In this document: positions 1 through 37,552 of the stretch, piece by piece
Layout of the letters: each line of letters begins with the position of its first letter
How positions within the stretch are numbered: the stretch's first letter is position 1
Assembly (NCBI GenBank): GCA_030431985.1
Contig: JAUIIB010000009.1
Location: 1 to 64,000, forward strand
Source: Gammaproteobacteria bacterium
Lineage (GTDB): Bacteria; Pseudomonadota; Gammaproteobacteria; Burkholderiales; Nitrosomonadaceae
Length of the DNA stretch: 64,000 nt
Reading direction: 5' to 3'
The notes under the pieces: generated by a model
Databases searched by the model: none
Told to the model about the DNA's origin: nothing
Seen by the model: the letters and a program-made list of their open reading frames with translations, nothing else
Program-made: the position numbers and the translations under genes

Positions 1-124
1 CACTAAAATGGACTATGCCAATCCATAACTGGAAACAGGCGCTGAATAGATTTACAATCGAATTCGAAGACCGTTTGAAGGACTACACTTAACTCAGACA
101 GTTACACAGAAAACTTTACACTCT
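1..124 (+). mobile_element. Right end of an IS256-family insertion sequence (left part outside window)
   Basis: The first 92 bases encode the end of an IS256-type transposase. They are followed by TTACACAGAAAACTTTACAC (102-121), which resembles the terminal inverted repeat of IS256-group elements. The element therefore probably ends near 124, in front of the intergenic DNA before the chemoreceptor gene. The left end, the other inverted repeat and any target duplication lie outside the window, so completeness cannot be judged. Confidence 0.7.
3..92 (+). CDS. IS256-family transposase, C-terminal fragment (cut by window edge)
   Basis: Reading from base 3 gives 29 residues ending at TAA 90-92. 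The residues WTMPIHNWKQALNRF followed by a stretch like FEDRL match the characteristic C-terminus of IS256 (Mutator-like, DDE) transposases, which catalyse cut-and-paste or copy-out transposition of their own element. The catalytic DDE residues lie upstream, outside the window. Only the tail is visible, so activity cannot be assessed. Confidence rests on the tail motif together with the inverted-repeat-like sequence right after it. Confidence 0.7.
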   Translation, partial: LKWTMPIHNWKQALNRFTIEFEDRLKDYT

Positions 125-284
125 CCAAAAACCATTAACTCATCATTGAATTGTAACTACAACGACTACTTTTGATTTTTCCTAAGTTATTGCCATGCCC
201 ACTGTCATGAAACTCAAGCGTTTGTTTTCATTGACAAAGGACATGGCACTTAACAAGTAGACAATACTACTTAAGAAAATTAAG

Positions 285-3035
285 CTAAAACTCTGTCCAT
301 TGATCGTCCTCCGTACCTGTTTTGGCCGGCGTTGATACCTTTTGCTGCCGCATCGTATCCTTTCTTTTGCCGGGAGCCGATATTCGCTCAACGTTGGTGG
401 CACGATTTGGACCACGTCGTTCCACACGTTCAGATATCACTTCTGCATCCTCTGCAGCTTGATCCAACCTAAACGTTGCAACTGCACGCATTAAACTTTC
501 AGCCTGTTCCCGCATCGACTCGGACGCAGCTGCAGCCTCTTCGACTAGAGCAGAATTCTGCTGCGTCACTTCGTCCATTTGTGTCACTGCCTCATTTACC
601 TGCTCAATACCTGTCCTTTGTTCACTTGATGCGGACGCAATCTCAGCCATAATATCGGTAACACGTTTCACCGACTGGACAATTTCATCCATGGTTTTAC
701 CGGCCTGATCAACCAGTTCGGTTCCGTCTCTAACTTTATCGACTGAATCACCTATGAGTTCCTTAATCTCTTTGGCAGCAGCCGCTGATCGCTGCGCCAG
801 AGTACGCACCTCTGTCGCTACCACAGCAAAGCCACGCCCCTGCTCACCAGCGCGAGCAGCTTCTACTGCAGCGTTGAGCGCTAATATATTGGTTTGGAAA
901 GCAATACCATCGATAACACTTATAATGTCAACGATTTTATTTGAACTCTCATTAATCGATGACATCATTGTGACAACCTGCCCCACTACGTCACCACCTC
1001 TTACTGCAATATCACTGGCACTACCAGCAAGCTGATTGGCCTGCATCGCATTATCGGCATTCTGCTTAACAGTAGAAGTCAATTCCTCCATACTGGATGC
1101 AGTTTCTTCCAATGAAGATGCCTGTTCTTCTGTACGCTGCGACAAATCATTATTCCCGGCTGCAATTTGTTGTGCCGCAGTATTTATCGACTCGGTACCG
1201 GAGCGAATATCACCTACAATTTTGATCAGATTTTCAACTGTAGCATTGGAATTGTCTTTCATCTGTCCAAAAAGACCGTTGTACTCACCCGAAACTTTTT
1301 GTGTCAAATCGCCATCTGCTAAAGCACCCAGAACACTGCCAACCTCTTTAAGGCTTCTCACGCAATTTTCCAATAAATCATTGACACTGGAGCACAGCGT
1401 GGCAATAGAACCTGATTTTCCTTCCATGGGAATACGATGGGTCAGATCACCATCCTTGGCAACGGAGACAACCTCAAGGGTTTGTTCCACTGCTTTGTCG
1501 AGCATCAGTTGCGCCTGTACCTGTTTAGTAACTTCTGAAGCGTGCTTGACAACTTTATAAGCTTTTCCGTTGGGATCGAGTATAGGGAAGTAACTGGCCA
1601 GCAACCATACTTCCTGGCCGTTTGAACTAATTCGCTTAAACTGTCCTGATGCAAATTCTCCTTTATTCAGTTTTTCCCAAAATGCCTTATATTCAGGACT
1701 CTTACGTTCGTCTGGATCAACAAACATACTATGATGCTTACCCTTAATCTCATGCAATGAATAACCCATTGTACTTAGAAAGTTATCATTGGCTGTAATA
1801 ATGGTGCCGTCCAGATTGAACTGAATGACCGCCTGCACCATATCTACGGCTTTAAGCTGCCCCTCTGTATCAAGGTTATGAAATTTCAACTCGGTAATGT
1901 CTGTACCGTATAATACAACTTTATAAGCCTTACCATTGGCATCAAAAATCGGGTTATAGTTACTCTGCACCCATACCTCGTCACCGCTTTTAGTAATGCG
2001 CTTAAACTGACCAACAAAAAATTCTCCGCGGCTTAATTTATCCCAAAACTGCTGATTCTCGGGTTCCTGGCGCTTGGAAGCCTCAACAAACATATCGTGA
2101 TGTTTGCCTTTAATTTCTTCCAGTGAATAACCTGTCAACTTCAGGAAATTTTCATTTGCCCATGTAATCGTACCGTCCAGCTTGAACTTGGCCATAGCAC
2201 GTGCCTTACTGACAGAAGCATCTTCAGCCTGATAATCAGCCACATCCTTCTCATGCTCAACCAGTTTCTCAGTCATTTTCTTCAGCGCATAAAGCATACG
2301 TCCCGCTTCATTCTTAGAAGTAATTTCAATTTTGGTATTCAGATTTCCTTGTGCGATCGAATTAGCAACAGTGACTGCTTTATTCATTGAGCCCACTATA
2401 TTACGCACCAAAAAATACCCGGCAACTGTGGCCAGAATAATACCCAGTACAATGGCCGTTATTGTAGTCATCGCATTAGTCTGGAAACTTTCCTGGGACG
2501 CTATAAACTCCGTTTCGGCAATTTTTGACTGTAAGCTGATGAGGTCAAACAAGGTTGTATGCATAGCTGCGAATTTAACTCTGGCATCACTCGCTGCATT
2601 GTGTTTTGCCGCTATAAAATCACCGTTAGAGGCAAAAGCCATTGTTCGATCACGTGAATCCCTATAAGCCTGTGATTGCTGGGCAAAAGTATCGGCCAGT
2701 AATTTTTCCTCAGCTGTTTTCGTTGTCTGCATGTACACTGACCAACTTGCATCTGCTTCACGATCCAATGCAGCGGTTTCAACTGTACGTTCTTTGGCAA
2801 CCCCGACATCTTCATAATTTGCAGCGACAACAGCATTAGTTCGGGTACGCTGGAACCTGTCCAAAACTACGGAAAGATCACCTAATGGTTTAGTCCGGTC
2901 CTCAAAAACTGATTTAAAATTATGATTCGAATGATCAAAACTGTATAAACCCCATCCCCCTACACCGACAATTAGCAATGTCAGGAAACTCAGTATCAAT
3001 ACGATCTGCAGCTTAAACGACATATTTTTATACAT
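285..3035 (-). CDS. Methyl-accepting chemotaxis protein with two PAS domains and a C-terminal pentapeptide tether
   Basis: A 916-residue chemoreceptor that would signal to the CheA/CheW array at the inner membrane. Transmembrane helix 1 is at about residues 10-32, a periplasmic four-helix-type segment at 35-185, and helix 2 at about 187-210, followed by HAMP. Two tandem PAS domains (about 280-395 and 400-515) share KHHxMFV motifs and look like an internal duplication. They suggest cytoplasmic redox or ligand sensing. A second HAMP-like stretch leads into the MCP signalling hairpin, with the highly conserved tip motif [20 protein letters not shown]. The C-terminus is DQWTEF, resembling the pentapeptide (NWETF type) that tethers CheR and CheB. 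No che kinase operon is adjacent; cheY and cheZ lie 47 kb away. The ligand cannot be told from sequence. Confidence 0.95.
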
Positions 3036-3637
3036 TACCTACATTCCTCCACCAGATTATTAATCATTTCATTCGAATCAATTACGTTTGTTCTGGGATT
3101 GCCATTAGTACTTTAAGTTAAGTTGTGCCGTCGTATGTCTACACCACTTAACGCCATATTAAGATTTGTCCCAATTGAAGCGTTATCCACATCACTTCTG
3201 TCATATCGCCAAAACTTAATTGATCGTAGCCTATGCGAATATCCAGACTTAATTCCTTATGGCATAACATACTAACAACTCTGTTCGAGCTTTATTCCAT
3301 AGAAAAAAGGTCGATTTCAGGGGTTAATCAGTTTAGACACCATCCCACCCCTTTCGCGCGAAAATCACTACACCGGTTTTATCTCCATTTCAAATAATGT
3401 TGAATTATTTATATTATTTAGAGCGCTTGCGCTTCTGTCGGATTCTTTTACAAACACCTTGTTATACGGGCACATAAAAACACAACAAGATGATAACCAA
3501 TTGATTAATATCAATATATTAGTTTGGGTATTATTCTTGCTTTAGAAGTAAATGAAGTGGGTTACCAGCGATCACCACTTCGAGAAACTTGAAATAGATA
3601 GCTGAAATAATTAGAAAACTCATTAAAGGGGTAAAAG
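3036..3637. other. 602-base gene-free region between divergent genes
   Basis: This stretch separates the leftward chemoreceptor gene from the rightward exported peptide gene. It must hold both promoters. The only strong signal I see is the FNR-type box at 3501-3514. A short palindrome AGCGCTTGCGCT lies near 3422. I found no tRNA, no ORF with a good ribosome binding site and no clear sigma-28 promoter for the chemoreceptor. Confidence 0.5.
3501..3514 (+). promoter_or_regulatory. Perfect FNR/ANR-type binding box upstream of the peptide-exosortase pair
   Basis: TTGATTAATATCAA matches the FNR consensus TTGAT-N4-ATCAA in all ten defined positions. Its centre is 130 bases upstream of the ATG at 3638. 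A possible -10 (TATTAT, 3529-3534) lies 3' of it, but the spacing is shorter than a classical class II FNR promoter, so the mode of action is unclear. The related regulators ANR, DNR and NnrR use similar sites. The inference is oxygen- or nitric-oxide-responsive control of the genes at 3638-6198. Confidence 0.5.
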
Positions 3638-3862
3638 ATGAACATCAGTAAAATATTAATTTTCAGTCTGACGCTACTCACATCAGGAAGCGTAATGGCC
3701 GGTGACGCATTAGGTTTGCCATTGGGGGCTGCGCTAGGAGGCGCATTGGGAGCTGCACTGGGAACTTCTTTACCGATATCAGTTGGCAGTGTATTAGGTA
3801 TAGGTGCTGTCAGCCTGGCTGTTGGCGCTCATTTAATAAAGCGCAAGAAAAAAACCAGTTAA
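3638..3862 (+). CDS. Small exported Gly/Ala-rich peptide with sorting-signal-like tail; candidate exosortase substrate
   Basis: A 74-residue protein with a ribosome binding site (AAAGGGG) before the ATG. Residues 1-21 form a clear signal peptide ending SGSVMA. The centre is a glycine/alanine-rich repeat (LGAALGGALGAALG). The tail has LPIS, a hydrophobic helix of about 19 residues and a basic end KRKKK. Signal peptide, short motif, membrane helix and basic tail is the tripartite layout of PEP-CTERM-like substrates, although the exact PEP motif is absent. The gene sits 38 bases upstream of an exosortase gene on the same strand, so a dedicated substrate or small membrane partner is plausible. 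I do not recognise a named family. Confidence 0.7.
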   Translation: MNISKILIFSLTLLTSGSVMAGDALGLPLGAALGGALGAALGTSLPISVGSVLGIGAVSLAVGAHLIKRKKKTS

Positions 3863-3900
3863 CCTGAACTGTCCAAAACCACCGCCGGAAGCATAGCCCA

Positions 3901-6198
3901 GTGCCGTTTGAGAGCCTCCTTATCGTTGTTTTGTTTTCTCTTGGTGGAGGCTTATTTCTGCTCGAACGAATTCCTTCTTTTCAAAGACAATGGACCTCCC
4001 TTAATGGACGTTTGACAACCAATCTTGGTCTGATGCTTATCGGCGGCATCCTGGTAGGATTATTGTTTCCTACAAGCCCATACACCGCTGCAACACAATC
4101 GTCCGGATGGATACACAGTTTAGATCTGTCGACGGGTATTCAAGCTTTCCTGGTATTCTTTTTTATGGATGTGTGGCGCTACTGGGAACATCGTATTTTC
4201 CATAAAGCTTCTTTTCTGTGGCGATTTCATCTTGTTCACCATAGTGATACTGCTATAGATGTCACTACGGCAGAAAGACATCATCCTGTTGAAACATTGA
4301 TTACCACACCGTTAGTTTTGATGTTGGTGTTGGTTCTGGGTCTTCCGGCAGCAGGTATTGCCGCCTATCTTCTTGCTGCAATGATCAGCGCACTGTGGGT
4401 TCATTCCAATCTGAAATTTCCCGAAGAAATCGATTCAGTACTTAGAATCTTGATTGTCACGCCTGCCGTACATGCTATACACCATTCCAACAAACGGCAA
4501 GAAACTGACAGCAACTATGGCGCTGTTTTCACCCTGTGGGATCGATTATTCGGCACGTACACTGATCCGGTCAATACCCATATTCAACATTTCGGACTTG
4601 AATATTTCCATTATCCCGAGGATTCCACGCTAACCCGGACATTGCTACAACCAGTGCTTTATCGAACAGGTATGTCATATCCTGTGCGCAAAGTACAACC
4701 CGAAAAAACAGCATCACAAACAATCACTACCGCCATCGGAATAGAGTGGCAACAGGCCCTGCTTTACGGAAGTTTGGGAATAGCCATAACCTGCTTGGCC
4801 ATGTGGCCAACTTTTTTAAATCTGACTACAGTGTGGTCAACCTCGGAACCCTATCAATACGCCTGGCTGGTTCTGCCTTTTTTAATTTATGTATTAGGAT
4901 GGCATTATCGAAGTGAAATTTTATCAATGTCACCACGTGCTGATCTGCTCGGATTCGTAATAGTAACTATTGCCGTTGGGCTGTGGCTGGCTGCAACAAT
5001 TGTACAGATTGACCTGGTCATGTACATCGCTTTTATATTAGCGTTGCAGGGCATTTTGATATCAATGTTAGGACGGCATATTTGGTGGCGTTTTTTTCCG
5101 ATTTTCGGAATACTTTTTTTTATGATTCCTTCGGGAGATATACTACAGCTACCGCTAAAATTATTAACAGTAGAGATCATAGACTGGTTTGCCAATACTA
5201 CAAACCTTCCCCACAGCATAGATGGCTTCGTCATTTATATTGGAGCACATCGTTATGTAGTCATTGATGCATGTTCGGGTTTAACATTTGTAACACTATC
5301 CGCCTTTCTATGCTATTGCTGGGGCAGTTTATTGTACCAATCTTTTTCTAAAGTCGCCGGCTTCGCCCTATTGGGCGGCATATTGGGTATTGCTGCAAAT
5401 GCGATACGCGTCAATATGATTGTCTGGCTGGATTGGATTAATGACACCGAAATGAATCTTACAGAGCATGGTGATATACAGTTAATCGCTCTCGTTTTCC
5501 TGCTTGGAGCTTTATTTCTTGTCGTCGGCCAATTGCAGCCCGATTCAAAATCGAATCGACAACAGCTCAGTGAAAAAAAACTGATAACAGCAGCACCCTG
5601 GAAAAAATACATCCCAGTTATTACAGGTTTATTCATTGTCGCTACAGTTGGCCCGATACAGTTCTTGATGACCACATCACAACCAAAGTTATTTTTGGCA
5701 AAAAACGAACAATTACCCGGAAATTTTACTACATCCTCTGTAAACCTATCGCAGACTCGATGGGTCATTAACGAAGAAAGCAGAACAAGTTCGCTAAACC
5801 TAGCTCTCGACCAAACATTAGATGCGCTCATTGTTCAAGCTCTACCCGGAAACAAAAAATTACCGGAATCCTGGCTGATACCTAAAGAAGAAGGTGGCGA
5901 CTGGCGCAAAGCAAATATTCAGAAACAACTTGTTTGTTTCCAAGAAAAGCAGTGTATTAACTTTGTCCACACTACCTGGAATAAACATGGCAGCAATGAT
6001 GTCCGACATGTTTTTTATGTTTATCATGTTGGCGACTTTTTTACCGACTCCAAATTCCTTTACCGTATGGCGGCCGGCTGGAATCGACTCAGAGGCTTTA
6101 ACCAAAAAGCTGGATTCATTAGTTTTTTCTCCACCGAATCGAGAACCTCAAGTCAGCAGCTCGCCGATGCTTACGCACAAATAAAGACAAAAATTTGA
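3901..6198 (+). CDS. Fusion protein: fatty acid hydroxylase/sterol desaturase domain + exosortase + EpsI-like domain
   Basis: A 765-residue membrane protein with a GTG start preceded by GGAAG. Residues about 80-225 carry the histidine boxes of the fatty acid hydroxylase/sterol desaturase superfamily (EHRIFH 96-101, HLVHH 110-114, HH 127-128, HAIHH 191-195), which bind a di-iron centre. From about 285 to 545 follows an exosortase. It has the DACSGL cysteine (Cys458), the NAIR arginine (Arg503) and the TEHGD histidine (His523), the expected catalytic triad for cleaving and transferring sorting-signal proteins. The last 200 residues resemble the EpsI/DUF3485 domain often found with EpsH-type exosortases. 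Many membrane helices are visible. An exosortase with a lipid-modifying domain on the same chain is unusual. The small peptide gene upstream may encode its substrate. The function of the hydroxylase half is unknown. Confidence 0.85.
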   Translation: MPFESLLIVVLFSLGGGLFLLERIPSFQRQWTSLNGRLTTNLGLMLIGGILVGLLFPTSPYTAATQSSGWIHSLDLSTGIQAFLVFFFMDVWRYWEHRIFHKASFLWRFHLVHHSDTAIDVTTAERHHPVETLITTPLVLMLVLVLGLPAAGIAAYLLAAMISALWVHSNLKFPEEIDSVLRILIVTPAVHAIHHSNKRQETDSNYGAVFTLWDRLFGTYTDPVNTHIQHFGLEYFHYPEDSTLTRTLLQPVLYRTGMSYPVRKVQPEKTASQTITTAIGIEWQQALLYGSLGIAITCLAMWPTFLNLTTVWSTSEPYQYAWLVLPFLIYVLGWHYRSEILSMSPRADLLGFVIVTIAVGLWLAATIVQIDLVMYIAFILALQGILISMLGRHIWWRFFPIFGILFFMIPSGDILQLPLKLLTVEIIDWFANTTNLPHSIDGFVIYIGAHRYVVIDACSGLTFVTLSAFLCYCWGSLLYQSFSKVAGFALLGGILGIAANAIRVNMIVWLDWINDTEMNLTEHGDIQLIALVFLLGALFLVVGQLQPDSKSNRQQLSEKKLITAAPWKKYIPVITGLFIVATVGPIQFLMTTSQPKLFLAKNEQLPGNFTTSSVNLSQTRWVINEESRTSSLNLALDQTLDALIVQALPGNKKLPESWLIPKEEGGDWRKANIQKQLVCFQEKQCINFVHTTWNKHGSNDVRHVFYVYHVGDFFTDSKFLYRMAAGWNRLRGFNQKAGFISFFSTESRTSSQQLADAYAQIKTKI

Positions 6199-6248
6199 AT
6201 ACGAAATCGCCGATAAATAGTTAAACCCTAAATCCGTTTGCCGGTAAT

Positions 6249-6974
6249 CTACCACATTTTCCGCACACTATTTTTTTCCTTCTCAATCTCTGAGCCGGTT
6301 AATTTGTCCCAAAGTAATATACCTGCACGCTGTTCAACATACGCGGTTGTCACCCGATAATCAGCTAGGTCACCATTCATATCGGCATTTTCCATTTCAA
6401 ACGCCCACATTTTGAGCTGACCGCTTTTGACTTCCGCTAATAGACATTTAAAAAAATGGCTCGGTACGGGAATACGAATTCCATTCATATCGTTCTCACC
6501 AATCATTCTGATGGGCACAGTAAAATCAAATATAGGCCCTGTAATGACATAGGTTTCCAGCACATTATCTTGCTTGTCGAGTTTACGCACAGCGTGCTCA
6601 AGTTGACGCCACTTTTGCCGGTTAAACTGTGGTGTTTGGGGTGACATGTTGGACAACAAAAACGTTTCACTATTCTGAATAGCCACGTCGCTCATATTCT
6701 CACTGGCAACCAGATGTCCACGATCAAATCCGCTGTGCCGATAATCGCTTAAATCCGCCCGAAATCTTTTCGGCACTCGAAAGTCCGGCCTGAAATTATT
6801 TAAACGTCGCACATCCCCCATGATACTTTTATCCGGATCGACAATCTCTAACGCCCACTTCGCCTGCCTAAAGTAATAGGAATAGCCCGTCACGTAATAC
6901 CGATTCACCAGAATATGATCAGCAGCCGGACAACCATAACGTGTTTCAGGCTTAAATGAAAATATGCCCTGCAT
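6249..6974 (-). CDS. DNA/RNA non-specific endonuclease (NUC1 family)
   Basis: The DRGHLVAS motif is the signature of the beta-beta-alpha-metal nucleases of the Serratia/NUC1 family; its histidine is the general base. Further family motifs are the NMSPQ stretch with the metal-binding asparagine downstream (QFNRQKW) and the YVITGP strand. I chose the internal ATG at 6974 (241 residues) because GAGGG sits 7 bases before it. A GTG 30 bases upstream would add ten residues. No signal peptide is visible in either version, which is odd for a family that is mostly exported. The Slp-like lipoprotein gene ends just upstream on the same strand, so the two are probably co-transcribed. The role could be nutrient nucleic acid degradation or a toxin. 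Confidence 0.85.
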   Translation of the reverse strand: MQGIFSFKPETRYGCPAADHILVNRYYVTGYSYYFRQAKWALEIVDPDKSIMGDVRRLNNFRPDFRVPKRFRADLSDYRHSGFDRGHLVASENMSDVAIQNSETFLLSNMSPQTPQFNRQKWRQLEHAVRKLDKQDNVLETYVITGPIFDFTVPIRMIGENDMNGIRIPVPSHFFKCLLAEVKSGQLKMWAFEMENADMNGDLADYRVTTAYVEQRAGILLWDKLTGSEIEKEKNSVRKMW

Positions 6975-7015
6975 CGCATGTCCCTCAAACCGTCCAATCG
7001 ACACATCCCACCCAT

Positions 7016-7501
7016 CTACCAGAAAAGCTGTTTAAAATAACAGGTCGGACAATTTTGATAATAATTTCCATGGTATGCGTCCGGCCAAGCATGAATCGCA
7101 GTAGCACGAATCAGCGGTATAGCCGTATCACCATGGTTGTCCATAGACTCAGTCTTACCCTCGATAACACCTATCGCCACAATCTCTTTATTCTCATATA
7201 AAGCAGATTGATCAGAACTATCTGGATTTTTGAGTAAAAAATAGCCCTCCGCAGTCTGATCAAGCTGCGGCCGACCATAAAAGTCCAGTGGATAAAACAT
7301 AACCCGCATCAGTTCACCGTTCTTTTCTTGCTTCACATCGACGACGACACCACCCCACTTCACATATTCATTTTGGTATTTTTGCGTCTCGCTTACAGCC
7401 TGCGCATATGAGACTCGCGCCACACGCGCATCATTAAAAGCAGGCGGCAAAGCAGCACAGCCAGCAAGCAATAAATAAATAAGTGTCAAGAAACATTTCA
7501 T
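7016..7501 (-). CDS. Slp/YeaY-family outer membrane lipoprotein
   Basis: About 161 residues. The N-terminal signal MKCFLTLIYLLLAGC ends in a lipobox, so the mature protein would be lipidated on cysteine and anchored to the outer membrane. The body (YVKWGGVVVDV, FYPLDFYGRPQ, IVAIGVIEGK) matches the Slp starvation lipoprotein family of gammaproteobacteria and relatives. An ATG four codons upstream also exists; I favour the inner ATG because it starts a canonical lipoprotein signal. It is followed closely by the nuclease gene. The molecular function of the family is not established. Confidence 0.8.
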   Translation of the reverse strand: MKCFLTLIYLLLAGCAALPPAFNDARVARVSYAQAVSETQKYQNEYVKWGGVVVDVKQEKNGELMRVMFYPLDFYGRPQLDQTAEGYFLLKNPDSSDQSALYENKEIVAIGVIEGKTESMDNHGDTAIPLIRATAIHAWPDAYHGNYYQNCPTCYFKQLFW

Positions 7502-7564
7502 ATCTCGAGCCATAACAGTTAATTAATAAGAATTTATCTGCGCAATTTTGCAGCAAATTATTAA

Positions 7565-8326
7565 CTAGTTTACACGCCTTGCAACAACTTCGATTTCAGA
7601 GACAAACAAACGGGTACGATGTCCGTATATATTTTTATTGGCAAGACGCTCACTGTAATGTACCTTGACCATCGCCGCCGTACGTAGGATTTCAATGGAA
7701 TATTCATAGAGATCATGATCATCGATTACAAAATGACGGAACTTATCTCCACTATCACCGATCTGCATAGACATAAAATAACTTCTGGGTGCATTCTTGT
7801 TCTTAATCACATTAGTTATTCGTCCATATTCAACACCATAAGAAACTTCCGGCCCAAAAGCCCAGATATCACCGATTAGATGTGTCTGTTCCAATGCTGC
7901 ATTATTATCGACTAGGTAGATATCCACTAATTCGTTTAATGCAGAACACGAAAGTAGGGAGTTACTACGCGGCGTCTTATATTCAATCACAACATTATGG
8001 CCGATCAATTCTTCAAGTACTTCATAGAAATCCGCTTTATCGAAGCAAAATAAAAAGGGATTGGTTACCAGGTTCTGCGGCAGGCTACCGAAACTAATAA
8101 AAGAAGCACTCCCGTAACCCAACAGCATCTCACCTGCACGCGTCGAGTTAAAAACATTACCCTGTGTATTTTCACGTACGATACGACTCAGTTGACCCGA
8201 AGCATAGCCTCTTGTATCGATGATCAGCGACCGCGAAAGCGCCGACCCGACTAGCAGACATGTCGTCATGATTATTAAAATCGAGACGCACAATATAATA
8301 TGAATTAAACGATAGTTTTTTTTCAT
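7565..8326 (-). CDS. Hypothetical membrane-anchored exported protein
   Basis: Not recognised. From the chosen ATG (253 residues) it begins MKKNYRLIHI followed by a single hydrophobic helix (about residues 8-28), so it is probably anchored in the inner membrane with a soluble domain outside. A longer reading from 8377 exists, but the hydrophobic segment then starts late, and a TATAAT hexamer on the minus strand (8376-8381) overlaps that start, so the shorter form is preferred. Residues VSYGVEYGRITNVIKN and the C-terminal half suggest a beta-rich fold. It lies in a leftward series of exported proteins (slp, nuclease) and may share their transcript. Confidence 0.6.
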   Translation of the reverse strand: MKKNYRLIHIILCVSILIIMTTCLLVGSALSRSLIIDTRGYASGQLSRIVRENTQGNVFNSTRAGEMLLGYGSASFISFGSLPQNLVTNPFLFCFDKADFYEVLEELIGHNVVIEYKTPRSNSLLSCSALNELVDIYLVDNNAALEQTHLIGDIWAFGPEVSYGVEYGRITNVIKNKNAPRSYFMSMQIGDSGDKFRHFVIDDHDLYEYSIEILRTAAMVKVHYSERLANKNIYGHRTRLFVSEIEVVARRVN

Positions 8327-8631
8327 CCCAAGTCGCCTCAAACAGTTTACAATCATTAGCGATTCAGCAATGATCATTATAGGCTTAATCCCCAGTATTA
8401 TCAGGAGATATAATTAAAGTCAGTTGAGATTTCACTATAAACCTTTAAGATCCCTTGGCGGCAATTGAGTATTCATCCCGGATCAATTTCTTATTGCAAA
8501 AAATGAATCACTATACGAATGAAACGAAAAAACGAGGCGCGACTTCACCCCCTCATATATCTTTAGTAAATAAATCATCTGTCTCGCGCTACATAAAAGA
8601 ACAAAACAGCATGAACTGATACGGACACTAC
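8327..8631. other. 305-base gene-free region
   Basis: Lies between two leftward hypothetical genes. A minus-strand TATAAT at 8376-8381, about 50 bases upstream of the ATG at 8326, is a possible -10 element; no good -35 accompanies it. Nothing else is supported. Confidence 0.4.
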
Positions 8632-9009
8632 TTATCCATTCTCAAATTTTCCGTTATGCTGAACGCAGGTCTCTTCTATCGTCGCGGCATTCCAGTCATG
8701 TTTCTTCTTTGACCCCTGATAAAAATGTTTGTCGAAAACCAACCCGTCGGGATCTTTGTACCGTATGCAACGGCCTATCCTATCGTTATCCGGGCACCGT
8801 TCACCTGTTGTACAATGTTTAGCTATCAGCTGACGATCCAAATCGGACAAGGTACTGAGGCGGTACTCTTCACATATACTCTGTCTTTTAATACGCTCAC
8901 ACACTGCGAAATCAGCAGCTTCATTCGAACCACTATGCGCAGTACACACCACCACAAATGACAACACTACCGCAGCTATCAATGAAAAAAACATCCGTTT
9001 CATTATCAT
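8632..9009 (-). CDS. Hypothetical exported cysteine-containing protein
   Basis: A 125-residue protein not assigned to a family. It starts with a signal peptide (KRMFFSLIAAVVLSFVVVCTAHS). The mature part has six cysteines, including CERIKRQSIC and CTTGERC, which suggests disulfide bonds in the periplasm. Charged residues are frequent. No clear ribosome binding site precedes the start, and an alternative ATG two codons later is equally possible. It stands just after pgsA on the same strand, with about 50 bases between. Confidence 0.6.
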   Translation of the reverse strand: MIMKRMFFSLIAAVVLSFVVVCTAHSGSNEAADFAVCERIKRQSICEEYRLSTLSDLDRQLIAKHCTTGERCPDNDRIGRCIRYKDPDGLVFDKHFYQGSKKKHDWNAATIEETCVQHNGKFENG

Positions 9010-9060
9010 TTATTTAGAATTTCAATATCGAATATTAATTAAAGAAAATCGGACATACCG

Positions 9061-9636
9061 TTATTTGTCCAACTTAACTACTTGAGGAATGGCTGCTTTT
9101 AAATAATAAATCATCGACCATAATGTCAGAACAGCAGCCACATAAATCAACCAGGTGCCAATCTCATGTGCGCTAATATCGCCTATCATGTCCTCATGAT
9201 AGAGCAGTAATGGAATAGCAATCATTTGCGCCGCCGTCTTGACTTTCCCCAGAAATGAAACTGCCACACTTCCTGAATGGCCGATTTGCGCCATCCACTC
9301 CCGTAACGCTGAAACCGCAATTTCACGACCAATAATAATTAGAGCAACGGGCGCGCCCAGTCGTTCCAAATATACAAGCACAATCAGTGCCGCCGCCACC
9401 ATTAATTTATCCGCTACTGGATCGAGAAACGCACCAAATGCAGACATTTGGTTCAATGCACGCGCCAAAAAACCGTCCAGCCAGTCCGTAATAGCCGCAC
9501 CGGTAAATATAATGGTTGCAATCAGATTTTTTTGTTCGACAGTCAACCAATCTGTGGGTAAATAGAAAATACCAACAAAAATCGGGATGGCCAAAATTCT
9601 AAGCCAGGTCAATAAATTAGGCAGATTTAAAGGCAT
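9061..9636 (-). CDS. pgsA: CDP-diacylglycerol--glycerol-3-phosphate 3-phosphatidyltransferase
   Basis: Makes phosphatidylglycerophosphate from CDP-diacylglycerol and glycerol-3-phosphate at the inner membrane, the committed step to phosphatidylglycerol and cardiolipin. The CDP-alcohol phosphotransferase signature DG-x2-AR-x8-G-x3-D-x3-D is intact (DWLDGFLARA ... GAFLDPVADK). Several membrane helices follow. The N-terminus MPLNLPNLLTWLRI is typical of PgsA, which fixes the ATG at 9636 over an upstream TTG. It follows uvrC on the same strand, the usual proteobacterial neighbour. Length (191 residues) is normal. Confidence 0.95.
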   Translation of the reverse strand: MPLNLPNLLTWLRILAIPIFVGIFYLPTDWLTVEQKNLIATIIFTGAAITDWLDGFLARALNQMSAFGAFLDPVADKLMVAAALIVLVYLERLGAPVALIIIGREIAVSALREWMAQIGHSGSVAVSFLGKVKTAAQMIAIPLLLYHEDMIGDISAHEIGTWLIYVAAVLTLWSMIYYLKAAIPQVVKLDK

Positions 9637-9758
9637 AAAACCAGCGCCGCGCAAGGCGGCTCATTAAAAAGCAATAGATAGTTAGATTGTTTAACGGCTG
9701 AACATCAAAAACATATCACTCAAAACAGGATTAAGGATCAACAAACGCCAAATGTTAA

Positions 9759-11585
9759 TTAATGCAATTCTTTATAGATTTTTTCCGCAAGTTTACGACT
9801 AATACCCTCGGTTCTGGCCAGCTCATCTATGCTTGCTGTTTGTACACCCTTCAGTCCACCAAAACGTCCGAGTAAGCCTTGTCGGCGCTTAGCGCCAATG
9901 CCACTGATCTGCTCAAGACTTGAGGTTATGCGCGATTTACTCCGTCGTCCACGATGCCCTTGTATCGCAAAACGGTGCGCTTCATCCCGGACTTGCTGAA
10001 TTAAATGCAGCCCTGGATGGTTATTAGGTAATTGTAACGACTTTTTCTGCGCCGGAAAAATCAATTGCTCCAAACCCGGTTTACGTCCCTCGCCTTTGGC
10101 CACACCGATTAGATTGGCATCACCAATACCCAACTCATCGAGTACCTCCTGAGCAGCATTTACTTGTCCCTTACCCCCATCAATCATAATCAAATCCGGC
10201 AAACGCCCTTCACCCTGCACAATTTTCTGATACCGTCGGGTTAATGCATCGCGTAACGCGGCATAATCATCACCCGGTTTAATTCCTTTAATATTAAACA
10301 ATCGGTATTCCTGGTTACGCATCGTAAAATTATCGTAAACCACACATGATGCTACCGTAGCCTCACCCATTGTATGACTGATGTCAAAACATTCAATACG
10401 ATTCAAACCGTTTAAATCCAGCGCTTGTTGTAACGCGACTAAACGATCCTCCTGGCTGGCTTTGCGATTTATCATTTGCTTAAGTGCGAGCTGCGCGTTC
10501 TCAGACGCCATGTTCAACCAAACACGCCGCTCCCCAATCGGATTCTGATTAATCGTCACTTTATGACCGGATTGCTCAGTCAGCAACGCTTCCAGTATTC
10601 CACGCTGAATTTTCCGATCGACAATAATCAGATTTGGCACACTGCGATTCAGATAATGCTGTGCCAGAAACGCTTCAATCACCATAGCCGGCTGGTAATC
10701 ACCAGCATTTTGCGGAAAAAAACTTTTATCGCCCAGGTGACGCCCTCCCCTGACCATAGCCAAAGTAACGCAAACCCGGCTGCTATCCTCTTTACTTGAC
10801 GCACATGCGATGATATCGGCATCGACAGCCTTACCGCTGTCGACAAATTGTTTTTCCCTGATTTTATGCAATGCCTGCATTTGATCGCGCAACACGGCCG
10901 CCTGCTCGTACGCCATTTCGTCCGAAGCCTGCTGCATTTTTTTAGCAATGCCACCGATGACTTCTGATTGTTTACCCTGTAGAAACAAGGTAGCACGCTG
11001 CACATCCTCAGTATATTCCGATGGTGGAATCTTATTGACACACGGTCCGCTACAGCGTTGGATTTGATACAACAGGCAAGGACGCGTACGATTATTAAAA
11101 ACACTGTCCTCACACGTACGCAAACGGAATACTTTTTGCAATAACTGAATACTTTCTCGCACAACACCCGCATTTGGAAACGGCCCAAAAAATTGATGCG
11201 ATTTGTCGAGCGCCCCCCGGTAAAACCCAAGCCGGGGAAAATCATGGTTACTTAAAATGATATAAGGATAGGACTTATCATCCCTGAACAAAATATTGTA
11301 TCGCGGCTTCAGGCTTTTGATTAAATTGTTCTCAAGCAACAACGCTTCAGCTTCTGAATGTGTTACTGTCGTTTCAATGGACGCAATCTGTGAAACCATT
11401 AACAGCGTTCTGGGCGCAAGACCCGTCTTCTGAAAATAGGACGAAACACGTTTTTTAAGATCCACTGCCTTGCCAACATAAATTACCTCGCCATCTATAT
11501 TCAACATGCGATACACACCGGGTTGCGCAGGTAAATCCTGGCAAAAACGCTTTGCATCGAATTGTTTACTGGCTGCTTGATCCAT
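9759..11585 (-). CDS. uvrC: Excinuclease ABC subunit C
   Basis: The nuclease subunit of UvrABC nucleotide excision repair; it cuts on both sides of the lesion. The N-terminal GIY-YIG nuclease shows PGVYRML and VIYVGKA. The central CEDSVFNNRTRPCLLYQIQR cysteine region and the UVR (UvrB-binding) domain follow. The C-terminal RNase-H-like nuclease has IECFDISH and LIMIDGGKGQ with its catalytic aspartates, and a helix-hairpin-helix ends the protein (ISGIGAKRRQGLL). I start at the ATG at 11585 (608 residues, standard length), with GGAAC upstream, instead of the in-frame codon ten residues earlier. Confidence 0.97.
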   Translation of the reverse strand: MDQAASKQFDAKRFCQDLPAQPGVYRMLNIDGEVIYVGKAVDLKKRVSSYFQKTGLAPRTLLMVSQIASIETTVTHSEAEALLLENNLIKSLKPRYNILFRDDKSYPYIILSNHDFPRLGFYRGALDKSHQFFGPFPNAGVVRESIQLLQKVFRLRTCEDSVFNNRTRPCLLYQIQRCSGPCVNKIPPSEYTEDVQRATLFLQGKQSEVIGGIAKKMQQASDEMAYEQAAVLRDQMQALHKIREKQFVDSGKAVDADIIACASSKEDSSRVCVTLAMVRGGRHLGDKSFFPQNAGDYQPAMVIEAFLAQHYLNRSVPNLIIVDRKIQRGILEALLTEQSGHKVTINQNPIGERRVWLNMASENAQLALKQMINRKASQEDRLVALQQALDLNGLNRIECFDISHTMGEATVASCVVYDNFTMRNQEYRLFNIKGIKPGDDYAALRDALTRRYQKIVQGEGRLPDLIMIDGGKGQVNAAQEVLDELGIGDANLIGVAKGEGRKPGLEQLIFPAQKKSLQLPNNHPGLHLIQQVRDEAHRFAIQGHRGRRSKSRITSSLEQISGIGAKRRQGLLGRFGGLKGVQTASIDELARTEGISRKLAEKIYKELH

Positions 11586-11656
11586 GCTTGTTCCGTCAGA
11601 ACTGTATCCGACCAAGAAAATAAAGTGTTTTAATGAATCGGAACCTTACAGTATGG

Positions 11657-11845
11657 CTAATCTTTTTTACCCAATAAAGCGCCTCCTATTGCCCAGTTTT
11701 CATGAGGAATTTCTTCAAATGTGATGTAAGTGTACGATTTCGATTTATTCGCAACGCGTGAAAGCGTATCCGTAATTTCCTCGGCAATTTGCGTTTTTTG
11801 ATCGTGGTTCAGCGTTCCCGCAACACGTAAATGTACATAAGGCAT
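11657..11845 (-). CDS. 4-oxalocrotonate tautomerase-family protein
   Basis: A 62-residue protein beginning MPYVHLRVAG. After removal of Met it exposes Pro1, the catalytic base of the tautomerase superfamily. The beta-alpha-beta layout and the later YTYITFEEIPHENWAIGG segment fit small hexameric 4-OT-like enzymes, which interconvert keto and enol forms. The true substrate is not predictable from sequence, since many family members have unknown roles. It sits between uvrC and the uracil-DNA glycosylase on the same strand with short gaps. Confidence 0.85.
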   Translation of the reverse strand: MPYVHLRVAGTLNHDQKTQIAEEITDTLSRVANKSKSYTYITFEEIPHENWAIGGALLGKKD

Positions 11846-11886
11846 ATTTTTTCTCCATTGTTATTCATTCAATATTTTTAGACTAA

Positions 11887-12570
11887 TTATAATAAGGACA
11901 AATCAGCCGAGATATTGGCAAATACCTGCTCGAACATTTCCGCCGTCAATCGCTTTGTCTGGGTATTGTAGCGGCTGCAGTGATAACTGTCATAGAGTTT
12001 GATTCCTCCCGCCTTCGCTTCCGGCAAAGAATATGCTGCGCCATGAGCAAACGGAAAGTCTCGCTGCCTCAGTCTCAAGCAGTGTAATACAGCCCGATGC
12101 GCTATCGCACCGAGTGCCAGTACAATCCGGCCATGCCGCTTTTTGAATGCAGCCAATTCTGTGTTCAAATAGTAGCTACAACACCGTATTTCATCTGGAA
12201 TTGGCTTATTTTGCGGAGGCAAACACTTAACGGCGTTGGTAATGCGGCAACCATGCAACTGTAAACCATCCTGCTGCGATATTGATTCATAATGGCTAGC
12301 AAAACCAAATTGATATAATGTTTGGTAGAGTAAAATGCCGGCGTAATCTCCAGTAAATGGACGGCCGGTCCGATTGGCGCCATGCATACCCGGCGCCAAT
12401 CCCACAATCAACAATTTTGCCTGCTCGTCGCCAAATGCGCTGACAGGCCGCGCATAATAATCAGGGTATTGTTCCTTTACTGAATCCAAAAAAATTGCGA
12501 GCCTGCCGCACTTTCGGCAATCTTTAGGTTCTAAAGGGTAATCCGCATTTATAGTAGAATGAGCAACCAT
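11887..12570 (-). CDS. Uracil-DNA glycosylase family 5 (UDGb type)
   Basis: Removes uracil (and in this family often hypoxanthine or other deaminated bases) from DNA to start base excision repair. Four cysteines (Cys17, Cys20 and a later pair near CRITNAVKCLPP) fit the iron-sulfur cluster seen in family 4/5 enzymes. The motif GLAPGMHGANRTGRPFTGD is diagnostic of family 5 (UDGb), with alanine where other families carry a polar catalytic residue. A C-terminal histidine motif (DSYHCSRYNTQT) corresponds to motif 2. Length 227 residues. Divergent from tamA, with a 96-base shared promoter region. Confidence 0.9.
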   Translation of the reverse strand: MVAHSTINADYPLEPKDCRKCGRLAIFLDSVKEQYPDYYARPVSAFGDEQAKLLIVGLAPGMHGANRTGRPFTGDYAGILLYQTLYQFGFASHYESISQQDGLQLHGCRITNAVKCLPPQNKPIPDEIRCCSYYLNTELAAFKKRHGRIVLALGAIAHRAVLHCLRLRQRDFPFAHGAAYSLPEAKAGGIKLYDSYHCSRYNTQTKRLTAEMFEQVFANISADLSLL

Positions 12571-12666
12571 AATATTTTTAACAAAACTTTAATCGTTTAA
12601 TCATCATGATTTTTGACATAGACCGCACTGTAATTCATGTTTTAAGCCGATTCTGTATGCCGTAAC

Positions 12667-14463
12667 ATGCAGAATATCCGTTTGATTTTCAATCAACAGC
12701 TTATCACGTTCATTTACATTATCTTCTTTTTGAGTTTGCTCACGTTAGGCAGCAATTCGTTATTAGCGGAATCCTCTATTCTGCCTAGCACCTCGGAGCC
12801 AACAAAATTCGTATTACTTTCGGCGCCGAAATCCATAAATGACTTTCTGGAAAAGCATATCGAGCTTCCAGAAGAACCCTTTACCAGCGATATGGCACAA
12901 AAAACATTTTTGCGTCGCACAACAATAGAAATTAATGAATTGCTGGCTACACGTGGCTATTTTTCACCCGTCGTTACCATAGCCAAAAAGACCGAGAAGA
13001 ATACTGAAATCCCGGAGATTATAGTTGATCCCGGAGAACGAACACGAGTTGAATCCGTTCAAATCGAATTTCTGGGCGATATCGTTTCTGATAAAGAATT
13101 TCAAAAAAGTATTACTCAATGGCGCAAAACCTGGCCGCTTAAAGCAGGTAAGTCTTTTCGTTCCGCCAAATGGGAAGAAGCCAAAGCAGCTTTGCTATCA
13201 AAAGTAACATACGAAAAATACGCTGCCGCTCGTATTGTCAAAAGTGAAGCGATTGTTGACAAAGAAAATGCGAAAGCAACATTATATGTCTTGATTGATT
13301 CAGGTCCGGCATTTTATTTTGGTGAACTTAAAATCACCGGATTGGAACGTTATGACACTGAAATGATCGAGAATTATAAACCGTTTCGTACGGGCGAGCC
13401 ATATAGCAAAGATCACATTCATCAATTCCAAATTGCGTTACAAAATATCCCTCATTTTGGCAATGTGTCGGTAAACATCGACTCCGACGTTGATCAACAC
13501 GCCGCAATCCCGGTGCATGTCACCGTCACCGAGACAGAATCGCAGAGTATCGCTATCGGCGGTGGATACAGTTCCAATAATGGTGCACGCGCCGAAATTA
13601 ATTACAGCAATCACGACTTTCTCAATCGCACCTTGAATTTCAACACATTGCTACGCCTGGAACAAAAACGCCAGACTTTCTTTACCGGCGTCAATACATT
13701 ACCTAACGAGAACAACATTTACTACGCTTTAGGCGCCAGTCTTCAAAGAACCGACATTGAAGACCTGAAAACCGTCAGAGAACGTGTTGACGCCGCACGT
13801 GTCTATCAAACACACAATATGCAATGGCAATATTCCCTGAACTGGCAGAGAGAGAAAAAACGCCCTAAAGGCGCTGTTAATCAGACTGTTAAAGCGTTGG
13901 CGCTCGACTGGCACTTTCGCTATCATGACGTAGACGATCCCGTTAACATTCGGCGCGGCCATGTTTCAGAATTCAAAATGGGAGGTGGCCTTGAATCGAT
14001 ACTCTCAGATCAAGATTTTCTCCGTTTGTACGGACAACAACAGAACTGGTGGCCGATTGGCAAACGCGACGTAATTTATCTACGTGGAGAAGCCGGGTAC
14101 ACATTCGCATCTTCGCGCTTCGGTATCCCACAGGAATATCTATTTCGTGCCGGTGGTCTGCGTTCGGTTAGAGGCTATGATTTTTTAAGTATCGGTGTTA
14201 ACGAGGGTGATGCAATTGTCGGTGGACGTGTCATGGCTACGGGTACCGCGGAATATACGCATTGGTTCATGCAAAACTGGGGCGCTGCAGCTTTTGTTGA
14301 TGCGGGCAGTGCAGCAGACACGATTAAAGATATGGATTTATTTCTCGGCTACGGTGCGGGTATTCGCTGGCGTAGCCCGGCGGGGCCGCTCGGACTCGAC
14401 GTGGCCAGAGGCCATAAAACCGGAACAATTCGAGTACATTTTTCAATGATTGTCAATTTTTGA
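12667..14463 (+). CDS. tamA: Outer membrane translocation and assembly factor TamA
   Basis: An Omp85-family protein of 598 residues. After a signal segment (residues about 1-33) come POTRA-like periplasmic domains (about 50-280) and then a 16-strand barrel. The barrel shows the family motif in FRAGGLRSVRGY and ends VNF with the C-terminal phenylalanine that BAM recognises. With TamB it forms a bridge between the membranes for insertion of some outer membrane proteins and probably phospholipid transport. The stop codon overlaps the start of tamB by one base (TGATG), so the two are translationally coupled. Confidence 0.93.
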   Translation: MQNIRLIFNQQLITFIYIIFFLSLLTLGSNSLLAESSILPSTSEPTKFVLLSAPKSINDFLEKHIELPEEPFTSDMAQKTFLRRTTIEINELLATRGYFSPVVTIAKKTEKNTEIPEIIVDPGERTRVESVQIEFLGDIVSDKEFQKSITQWRKTWPLKAGKSFRSAKWEEAKAALLSKVTYEKYAAARIVKSEAIVDKENAKATLYVLIDSGPAFYFGELKITGLERYDTEMIENYKPFRTGEPYSKDHIHQFQIALQNIPHFGNVSVNIDSDVDQHAAIPVHVTVTETESQSIAIGGGYSSNNGARAEINYSNHDFLNRTLNFNTLLRLEQKRQTFFTGVNTLPNENNIYYALGASLQRTDIEDLKTVRERVDAARVYQTHNMQWQYSLNWQREKKRPKGAVNQTVKALALDWHFRYHDVDDPVNIRRGHVSEFKMGGGLESILSDQDFLRLYGQQQNWWPIGKRDVIYLRGEAGYTFASSRFGIPQEYLFRAGGLRSVRGYDFLSIGVNEGDAIVGGRVMATGTAEYTHWFMQNWGAAAFVDAGSAADTIKDMDLFLGYGAGIRWRSPAGPLGLDVARGHKTGTIRVHFSMIVNF

Positions 14464-17400
14464 TGAATAATCACGACGGTAACACAAGCCATACCGAAAA
14501 AAATAATGCACGGATTCGCAACATGCCGGACCCAGACATGCCGCTTAATAAACACTCTGGGCGAAAACGGAGAGGTATACGTTTCAAATGGCCAATCATT
14601 GTTTTTTTCAGCATCGTCATAGCACTGGCTGGTAGCGGCTATTGGACTTTAAATACAACTTCGGGCTTTCATTGGCTATTAACCAGTGCAGCGCGTCTGA
14701 GTAAGGGCGCTCTGAATATCGACGAGATAAACGGCACCATCAGTAATATGCAAATAAAAAAATTGCAATATATTGATGAAACCGTACAACTCACTGTTCA
14801 TCAATTCACGTTTAACTGGTCACCGAGTCAACTACTGGCCATGAAACTGTTGATTGAAAGAATCAGCGCCCAACGTATTGATATATATACCGCACCTTCC
14901 GCAGAAGAAGACACCGAACCGGCTGCACTGCCTGAAGACTTAACGTCACCCATTGATATTTCGCTGCTAGCACTTTCAATTGACGAAATAAATCTATACA
15001 CGATTGAAGACAGCCCATCTGAACAACAGCCAGAATTTACAGCAACCGATTTTTCGATCGGTTTGGAAAGCAATGCGCAACAGCACCAGATAACCCGGTT
15101 CTCGTTTGCTTCGGAACTGGGTCTTTTCAATGCATCGGGGCATATCCAAACAGCACGTCCATTTAAACTGAGATCGGAAATTCAACTCAACAACGCCGCG
15201 CAATGGGGTATTACACAGGCGCATGCTTCCGGTTCTCTCGAACAACTGGATATCAAACTGACACATCATAAAAACCCAATGCAGGGTGTGGCTGTAATTA
15301 GTCTGAGTCCATTCGCCGAAAGCCCGTTAGCAATGTTGTCAACATTGCATGCACGCATTACAGGATTTAATCCCGCTGCTTTTATTCCCGATTCACCTGA
15401 AATGCCCAATGCCGACATGGTATTGCACACTGTCGTCAAACAAAGCGGCGGCAATCAACTCATCGGTCAGCTTAGACTGAATAACAACGCCGCAGCCCCG
15501 CTGAATCATGACGGTCTGCCACTCGCCAGCGCCACCACTGACATACAACTAACGGAAGAAACATTTAAGCTGAACAATCTGCGGATACTGTTTACCGAAA
15601 AGGGGTTGATTTCCGGAAAGATCATATGGCAAATCGATCCGTCAATTGGCCAGGCAACACTCAACATCGATCATTTGAATCCGGCTGCAATTGATTCACA
15701 GCTACAACCTGCCAAGGTTAACGGAATAGTCCAATTTACCGGAGACGCTGATCGGCAGCAGGTCACGGTCAATTTAAGCGACCAGGCATTAAAGCTGAAC
15801 GCCGCCGCTTCACACGACTCCAACCATGTAAAACTGGAACAGCTCGAACTCAGTCACGGTCGATCCAGTCTCACCGGCAAAGGTGAATTATCACTTGGCG
15901 ACGATACAAAAGCGGACAACACTCAACCATTTCATTTTACCGGTCAACTCAGGCGATTTAACATTGCCGATTTTGTCCAAGGACCTGAATCCGACCTTAA
16001 TACACGACTAAACCTCACAGGCCATTTATCACCTGAACTGTCGGCCAAACTCGATTATCGATTTGAAAAAAGTCATCTGAACCGTCATCCGGTAACGGGC
16101 AATGGAGATATTGCATTGAGCATGCCATTGTCTTTCAATGGAAAAGCCGGCCTTCAAATCGGTTCGAATCAACTTGATATCAATGGGCAATTTGGCAACA
16201 TCGGCGATACGCTAACACTTGATCTTACAGCGCCGTCATTAACGCAAGCCGGGTTTGGAGTATCGGGATTTCTTAAAGCCAAGCTCGATATTAAGGGCAC
16301 GCCGGATTCACCGAGTATTGATTTTGACATTAACGCCCAAAAACTTGCCCTGCCTGATTATCAAGCTGTTGAAGATTTATCGGCTCAGGGTAAAGTTGAT
16401 TCAACAGCGCTTTCATTAACACTCTCGGCAAATGACCTACAATCGGATGGAAAAACCCAGGTCAAAGCAGTCAACTTTCAAGTGACCGGAAAACATTCGG
16501 CTCACACGCTCGAAGCCCACGTGAATTTAGATGATGAGATTACAGCTGAAGTATTTGCTGAAGGCGGGCTTATCAAATCAGATAAAGAAAGCACACCTTC
16601 CGGTTGGCAGGGACAACTAACCAGCCTGGCGATAACGGGGCCGGTACCGGTCAAATTACAAAAACCGGCGTCCATCAAACTTAGCGACGAAAAAATCTCC
16701 ATTGGTCATACCAAAATGTCCATTGCAGGAGGTGAAGCTGAAATAAATACTGTATTCTGGTCGCCTGATAGCTGGCAAAGCGACGGTCACTTCTCGGGTA
16801 TTAAGCTAAACCCGGGTACTGACATACCAAACAAAGAAAACATGCTGCATTTAGGCGGTAGATGGCATATGAAATCACCGGCTTCTCTAACCCGACTCAA
16901 TGGCAGTATAGAAATCACACGCGAACAAGGTGACTGGTATCTCCCTGGACCTACGCCTGCAGGTATACAAACGTTAAAACTGCTGGCGGAAGCACGCAAC
17001 GGCACAATAACCGGAAAATTTGATCTAATCAGCCAATCCGCAGGTGAGATTAATGCACAACTCGCACTTTCAGACCTTCATCAGGACAAAGATGGCAACT
17101 TGGCCCAAAATACCCCAATTAATGGAAGACTTAATTTAAATCTTCCTGACTTATCCTTACTGAATCAATTTACCGACAGCCCTATACAAACAGAAGGTAA
17201 AGTTAAGCTGCAAGCTGATATTGCCGGAACAATCGACAATCCGGTACTGGAAGGAAATATTCTTGGAGATCAGCTTGCCATAGCGGCACTTGACTTTGGA
17301 CTAGACCTGCAACAAGGACAGTTGAAGGCAAAATTCGATCAATCCGCGCTGCACATCGATCAACTGAAATTTGTATCACCTCATCAACCTCCACCCAAGG

Positions 17401-37538: not shown

Positions 37539-37552
37539 CGCAATATCTATCA

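Follow-up and report, generated by a model that had tools for sequence, protein, structure and literature searches.

The window, that is, the whole stretch of 64,000 nucleotides that was analysed, comes from a genome of 2.73 Mb in 62 contigs. On its forward strand it carries a small gene (3638..3862, +) followed after 38 bases by a long fusion gene (3901..6198, +), which starts with a GTG codon, has no internal stop and encodes 765 residues. An earlier note on this DNA had placed a hydroxylase and an exosortase on this one chain, and the Pfam profiles bear this out: an FA_hydroxylase domain covers residues 83-219 (4147..4557, +; PF04116, E 3.1e-32) and an exosortase domain (Exosortase_EpsH) residues 295-541 (4783..5523, +; PF09721, E 1.6e-33). 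A last transmembrane helix is predicted at about residues 567-591 (5599..5673, +) from a low-confidence model of the whole chain, a hydropathy peak at 571-589 and helix 18-37 of a separate model of the C-terminal domain. It leads to that domain, which is tentatively called EpsI-like (residues 592-765; 5674..6195, +).

The earlier note had suggested looking for the fusion in other genomes. A scan of genome contigs with a two-row alignment and two strict peptide patterns yielded six relatives outside the window genome (L060-L065), so that 'members' below means these six and the window protein. They come from Nitrosomonas aestuarii (L060, strain Nm36), a Rhodoferax metagenome-assembled genome (MAG), two Gammaproteobacteria MAGs, a Betaproteobacteria MAG and Litorirhabdus singularis. 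Identity to the window protein by best segment is 62% for N. aestuarii and 41-51% for the other five. Both Pfam families match the whole chains of all seven at E <= 0.01. The L063 sequence ends at a contig edge, and the reading frame of L064 is broken close to the His position, away from the fusion joint; both were counted only as far as they can be read. The L064 break (L064:6550-6600) splits the fusion of this MAG at the catalytic-His region and could reflect decay or a sequencing error. A frameshift or assembly artefact, which the earlier note had named as a way in which its reading might fail, is ruled out for the window fusion by its uninterrupted ORF and by intact full-length relatives in N. 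aestuarii Nm36 and Litorirhabdus IMCC14734.

The small gene encodes 74 residues and is preceded by a likely ribosome-binding site, read from the sequence, six bases before its ATG (AAAGGGG; 3625..3631, +). Its product begins with a signal-peptide region, assigned by eye, which ends in VMA (residues 1-21; 3638..3700, +). This is followed by an LGxx tetrad repeat in which every fourth residue is glycine (residues 25-46; 3710..3775, +) and by a C-terminal tail, conserved in alignments, that consists of the hydrophobic stretch VLGIGAVSLAVGAHL and a KRKKK cluster (residues 52-72; 3791..3853, +). Residues 21-74 contain six glycine pairs at a spacing of 4, compared with 1.9 in shuffled sequences (0.15% of shuffles as high). 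An excess of such pairs occurs in four of the six small proteins (0.15-1.5% of shuffles as high); it is not significant in L062 (15% of shuffles as high) and L065 has no such pair. The start of the protein after the signal peptide is conserved and LGTP-like, and the motif before the hydrophobic helix is loose (L065 has no LP). The only invariant residues in the alignment of members are G26, P28, G42, G50, A57, S59, L60 and G63.

Searches of NCBIfam, Pfam and further profiles place the small protein in no family above cut-off. It is absent from the 20 hits of the PEP-CTERM profile (TIGR02595) in its own genome at E <= 10, and none of the six small proteins matches this profile. Its status as a sorting signal is therefore argued from its layout and its gene pairing: it appears to have the layout of a sorting target, but is not a PEP-CTERM protein. 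A bacteriocin reading was considered and dropped: Bacteriocin_IIc (E 1.6) and E492 microcin (E 0.36) matched one member each, and no neighbour is consistently shared.

Several other genes in the window can be mentioned. A methyl-accepting chemotaxis protein with two PAS-type stretches (285-3035, -) adjoins the cassette and has no match in L060-L065. Neighbouring Omp85/POTRA and TamB genes (12667-18509) form an outer-membrane assembly pair of the TAM type. Further along (36150-41092), a TIR-domain protein (PF13676, 462 residues) is followed by a WD40-repeat protein of 1179 residues whose start, by eye, is NTPase-like; as a pair the two are candidates for a role in conflict or defence.

Catalytic sites, topology and the C-terminal domain

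The hydroxylase part scores 112.2 bits (cut-off 31) and has the histidine boxes of the FA_hydroxylase superfamily. The earlier note had listed these boxes, and the eleven histidines tested, within codons 97-195, are invariant in all seven members (residues 97, 101, 110, 113, 114, 127, 128, 168, 191, 194 and 195).

The exosortase part reaches 116.6 bits with PF09721 (cut-off 25.7) and passes the broad exosortase signature TIGR04178 (30.1 against 23), which places it in the exosortase superfamily. The best NCBIfam exosortase model, XrtA (TIGR03109), gives 134.5 bits against a cut-off of 208. The general bacterial exosortase model TIGR02602 (8TM_EpsH; cut-off 105.55) gives 87.2-90.8 bits with the window fusion and 81-105 with its six relatives, and the scores for XrtW (71 against 425), XrtD (65 against 400), XrtV (36.5 against 313), XrtN (24 against 200) and XrtQ (22 against 270) are all under their cut-offs. 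Since only TIGR04178 is passed, with XrtA and TIGR02602 below cut-off, the fusion protein is, on these NCBIfam scores, an exosortase but of no named type.

The catalytic residues proposed in the earlier note, Cys458 (codon 5272..5274, +), Arg503 (5407..5409, +) and His523 (5467..5469, +), hold up well. When its profile is aligned with that of the other exosortase of the window genome (Prob 99.7, E 1.7e-26), they fall on Cys189, Arg234 and His255 of the latter; a failure to align with exosortases, which the note had said would count against it, is thus not what was found. Cys458 and Arg503 are kept in seven of seven members and His523 in all six that can be read there, L064 having its frame break at this point. 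Cys458, the proposed nucleophile, is predicted to stand where a membrane helix, taken from a low-confidence model, begins on the periplasmic side.

Because the model of the whole chain, built from seven sequences, is poor (mean pLDDT 54), the topology was derived from charge and hydropathy, the helix boundaries being those suggested by hydropathy and the low-confidence model. Lysine and arginine counts in the loops of the seven members fit an arrangement in which the histidine boxes and the linkers lie inside, with Cys458 and the Arg503-His523 loop outside. The Cys, Arg and His are thus predicted, by charge counts, at the outer face of the membrane, and the hydroxylase and exosortase sites on opposite faces. 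Such an arrangement, which any mechanism has to accommodate, would require the lipid either to flip or to receive its hydroxyl group inside the bilayer. The C-terminal domain should also lie outside since one more helix comes after the basic linker.

The earlier note had also called the C-terminus EpsI-like. Position speaks for this label, as does the profile alignment of the whole chain, which continues collinearly into the EpsI part of XrtA-EpsI fusions. Some relatives match EpsI profiles: PF11984 finds three of five C-termini at E <= 10 (best 3.3e-5) and one of seven whole chains at E <= 0.01, and TIGR02914 finds two of seven members at E <= 1 (best 0.023). Against it, the window protein stays below both cut-offs (11.9 bits against 42.8 for TIGR02914 and 26.1 for PF11984), and an alignment of the C-terminal profiles alone gives no match (Prob 0.4). 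The EpsI-like assignment is therefore weakly supported.

All six readable members carry a C-x(4-5)-C...HxxW motif in this domain (in the window protein Cys679, Cys685, His690 and Trp693; 5935-5979, codons 679-693), which might serve as a disulfide, a metal site or a redox site. Modelled alone, the domain reaches a mean pLDDT of 74. The counterparts that this model finds among PDB structures are weak (best E 0.046 with Foldseek; best Z 6.6 with VIA-align, for instance SciW, PsbP, DcrB and Mog1) and may represent only a common arrangement.

Pairing with the small gene and distribution

A homologue of the small protein lies directly upstream of the fusion at all six loci for which upstream DNA is available (the window, L060 and L062-L065); in L061 only 38 bases of contig precede the fusion. 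To the 38-base gap of the window correspond gaps of 46, 45, 153, 58 and 40 bases in L060, L062, L063, L064 and L065, that of L063 being measured from a presumed start at 7989. One strong copy of the small gene (E <= 1e-20) was found in each of six of the seven fusion genomes, the genome of L061 being the miss, and weak second hits in these genomes (E 0.05-0.08) were unrelated on inspection. The earlier note had proposed a genome-wide search for further proteins with this tail; the window genome yielded no second one, the next best hit having an E value of 0.198.

Among 125 genomes of the family, one further full-length fusion occurs, that of N. aestuarii, and the fusion and the small gene are found in the same two genomes and in no other. 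In the class sample the small protein has hits at E <= 0.01 in nine of 369 genomes, and the only true match is that of the window genome; the other eight were dropped after inspection as low-complexity repeats, other proteins or a glycine-zipper protein with no such tail. The pairing of fusion and small gene is well supported. It is the small product that proves to be conserved as a partner, and no part of the locus tells more. Of the proteins encoded in window positions 1-16000, only it and the fusion have matches in L060-L065, and no further neighbour is consistently shared among those six. Sensor-kinase-type proteins are common to L061, L063 and L064, at different places and on different strands, and one 30% match links a gene of L060 with L063; both are read as having no connection with the cassette. 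In N. aestuarii a CDP-archaeol-synthase-like lipid gene (L060:6617-7102; PF01864, 74.5 bits, cut-off 22; NCBIfam, 85.6 against 148) precedes the cassette at a distance of about 600 bases; neither L061-L065 nor the proteins encoded in window 1-16000 showed a counterpart.

The fusion itself is rare, as the order and class samples contained only that of the window genome (399 genomes evenly sampled, E <= 1e-45; 369 genomes, full-length matches at E <= 1e-60). A single-protein scan of the same genome contigs found no relative and the two-pattern alignment scan found six, so the true number of fusions is probably higher. A search with two patterns found no fusion in viral contigs, and the PDB sequences gave no match at E <= 0.1. 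Plasmid matches comprise 112 records, none over more than 80% of the query, and each of the 20 matches listed covers only the hydroxylase part.

A recently acquired island has no support from composition, the GC content being 43.4% in both the cassette and the window; in the other six loci the cassette differs from the rest by 0.4 to 4.2 points. In the comparison with N. aestuarii, third codon positions change most, both in the small gene and in each of the three parts of the fusion.

A proposed mechanism and the readings that compete with it

We propose that the genes at 3638-6198 constitute a dedicated exosortase system which cleaves the small protein and couples the resulting peptide to a lipid that the system's own hydroxylase has modified, a reading to which we give a probability of about 45%. 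A cargo ending in a hydrophobic stretch and a basic cluster is the sorting-signal layout described in PMC3237569, where one enzyme with a single target represents a dedicated system. A single small gene is adjacent to the fusion at all six loci, and the small protein is proposed as the dedicated target because of these two resemblances, its tail and its single-target pairing.

Three steps can be envisaged. In the first, Sec would export the 74-residue protein, the signal peptide would be removed after Ala21, and the C-terminal helix with its KRKKK end would hold the protein in the inner membrane. In the second, the exosortase domain would cut near the junction before the C-terminal helix, as the conserved residues and the collinearity with XrtA suggest, through a thioester on Cys458 with Arg503 and His523 assisting, all at the predicted periplasmic face. 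In the third and least certain step, the freed LGxx-repeat peptide of about 25 residues would pass to a membrane lipid that the fused domain has hydroxylated on its cytoplasmic side, perhaps a lipid of the amino-acid type, as with the related enzyme OlsE. What results would be a small glycine-rich peptide held in the envelope by a lipid anchor, and the fusion would unite lipid modification and transfer in one machine. Cleavage of the small protein is suggested by the conserved residues. The lipid step is drawn from the enzyme families and from precedents; the idea of the earlier note that the hydroxylase could modify the acceptor lipid is plausible and stays the favoured mechanism.

This last step is where a somewhat unlikely but substantial alternative arises: the exosortase would still be dedicated to the peptide, and the hydroxylase would act on bulk membrane lipids or another membrane molecule, being fused only for co-regulation or localization. 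The hydroxylase does belong to a large stand-alone family present in many genomes of the family and class (the 20 other matches to the fusion in the 369 genomes of the class sample are all stand-alone hydroxylases), and the predicted location of the two active sites on opposite membrane faces would suit such a division. Moreover, an exosortase ORF is missing from the flanks (about 1.5 kb) of all 41 stand-alone hydroxylase loci, so that the two activities are not generally linked; a separate-gene version of the pair was consequently not seen, and its absence does not help the lipid reading. The history of the fusion points the other way. Genomes from Nitrosomonas to Litorirhabdus retain it, the eleven tested histidines being invariant, and the seven fused hydroxylase domains form a clade of their own, separate from the 41 stand-alone homologues and supported at 98/97 and by 96% of bootstrap trees, in a tree where the neighbouring row L010, a match with an internal stop codon, was flagged as a long branch. 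Pairwise identities of the hydroxylase and exosortase domains also rise and fall together (r 0.90; 21 pairs, which are not independent), and the separate clade and this co-variation together indicate one old, stable fusion.

It is improbable, in our estimate, that the small protein remains uncleaved and serves as a glycine-zipper membrane subunit which binds the fusion enzyme as a partner. The strict gene pairing and the excess of glycine pairs at spacing 4 in four of six members would be compatible with such a role, as would a weak match to the glycine-zipper family PF05433 (E 0.079). However, the basic cluster at the C-terminus after a single hydrophobic stretch is the standard layout of a sorting signal according to PMC3237569, and the number of LGxx units varies, by eye, from about two in L065 to about eight in L060 while the tail stays conserved, as expected for a cargo plus a signal.

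A similarly weak case can be made for the fusion as a second exosortase for ordinary PEP-CTERM proteins, with the small protein as one more target or as a regulator. The fusion could still act on PEP-CTERM proteins, because at least one other exosortase is over cut-off in six of the seven fusion genomes and PEP-CTERM hits at E <= 0.001 occur in all seven. The window genome has a second exosortase on another contig (283 bits), together with 18 PEP-CTERM hits over cut-off at E <= 10 (two of 14 control genomes were also over) and eight at E <= 0.001 (none of the 14 controls). Against this, the PEP-CTERM hits do not include the tail of the small protein, the protein is unique in its genome, and the fusion and small gene are absent from 123 of the 125 family genomes, many of which have a match to an unfused exosortase. 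In the L063 MAG, which may be incomplete, the pair occurs with the fusion as the sole exosortase detected and with one PEP-CTERM hit, and this suggests that the fusion is independent of XrtA. Another exosortase-linked component, the acyltransferase TIGR03694, is over cut-off in five of the seven fusion genomes.

Relation to known systems and significance

The earlier note knew of no characterised example of such a protein, and searches of open-licence papers agree, having turned up no description of a hydroxylase-exosortase fusion. Of the known systems, XrtA, often fused to EpsI and associated with PEP-CTERM proteins, resembles it in its homologous exosortase domain, its collinear Cys, Arg and His residues and its C-terminal extension. 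The window fusion differs in having an N-terminal hydroxylase, in falling below the XrtA cut-off and in having one adjacent proposed target that lacks a PEP-CTERM signal. Its C-terminal domain has a conserved Cys pair, in contrast to seven XrtA-type EpsI regions, which have no invariant Cys column.

An exosortase fused to a CAAX protease is known under the name XrtE. Like the window fusion, it carries an extra membrane enzyme on the exosortase chain, but that enzyme is protease-like and not lipid-hydroxylase-like. PMC1569441 reports four EpsH/CAAX fusions and also describes EpsH-EpsI fusions, both kinds being taken here as precedents for the proposed lipid step.

A link between a sorting enzyme and lipid synthesis has a precedent in archaeosortase A: the lipid enzymes PssA and PssD are involved in the maturation of its targets (PMC7157517). 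That system is archaeal, its genes are separate and it has no hydroxylase on the chain. The best named hydroxylase model for the window fusion is the ornithine lipid hydroxylase OlsE (NF052566), although its 83.5 bits are far under the OlsE cut-off of 475. OlsE acts on ornithine lipid (PMC3972451 and PMC11631085); it hydroxylates an amino-acid lipid (PMC3972451). A further precedent is that N-acyl amino acid synthases occur with PEP-CTERM/exosortase systems (PMC4897644).

The proposed target is small, so that its mature C-terminus and any lipid on it could be directly readable by mass spectrometry; N. aestuarii Nm36 and Litorirhabdus IMCC14734 are among the named strains with the pair. A more daring version of our proposal, which we regard as doubtful, is a self-contained lipopeptide machine: one polypeptide would hydroxylate a membrane amino-lipid and join it to the C-terminus of a ribosomal glycine-repeat peptide of about 25 residues. 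If true, the exosortase would here be making lipidated micro-peptides of a new class instead of an anchored surface protein.

To our knowledge, the acceptor to which Gram-negative exosortases attach their targets is still unsettled. A chain on which an exosortase is joined to an enzyme of the lipid-hydroxylase type, and which has one tiny protein as its proposed target, offers a natural hint at this acceptor, and the fusion may reveal to which lipid exosortases attach proteins.
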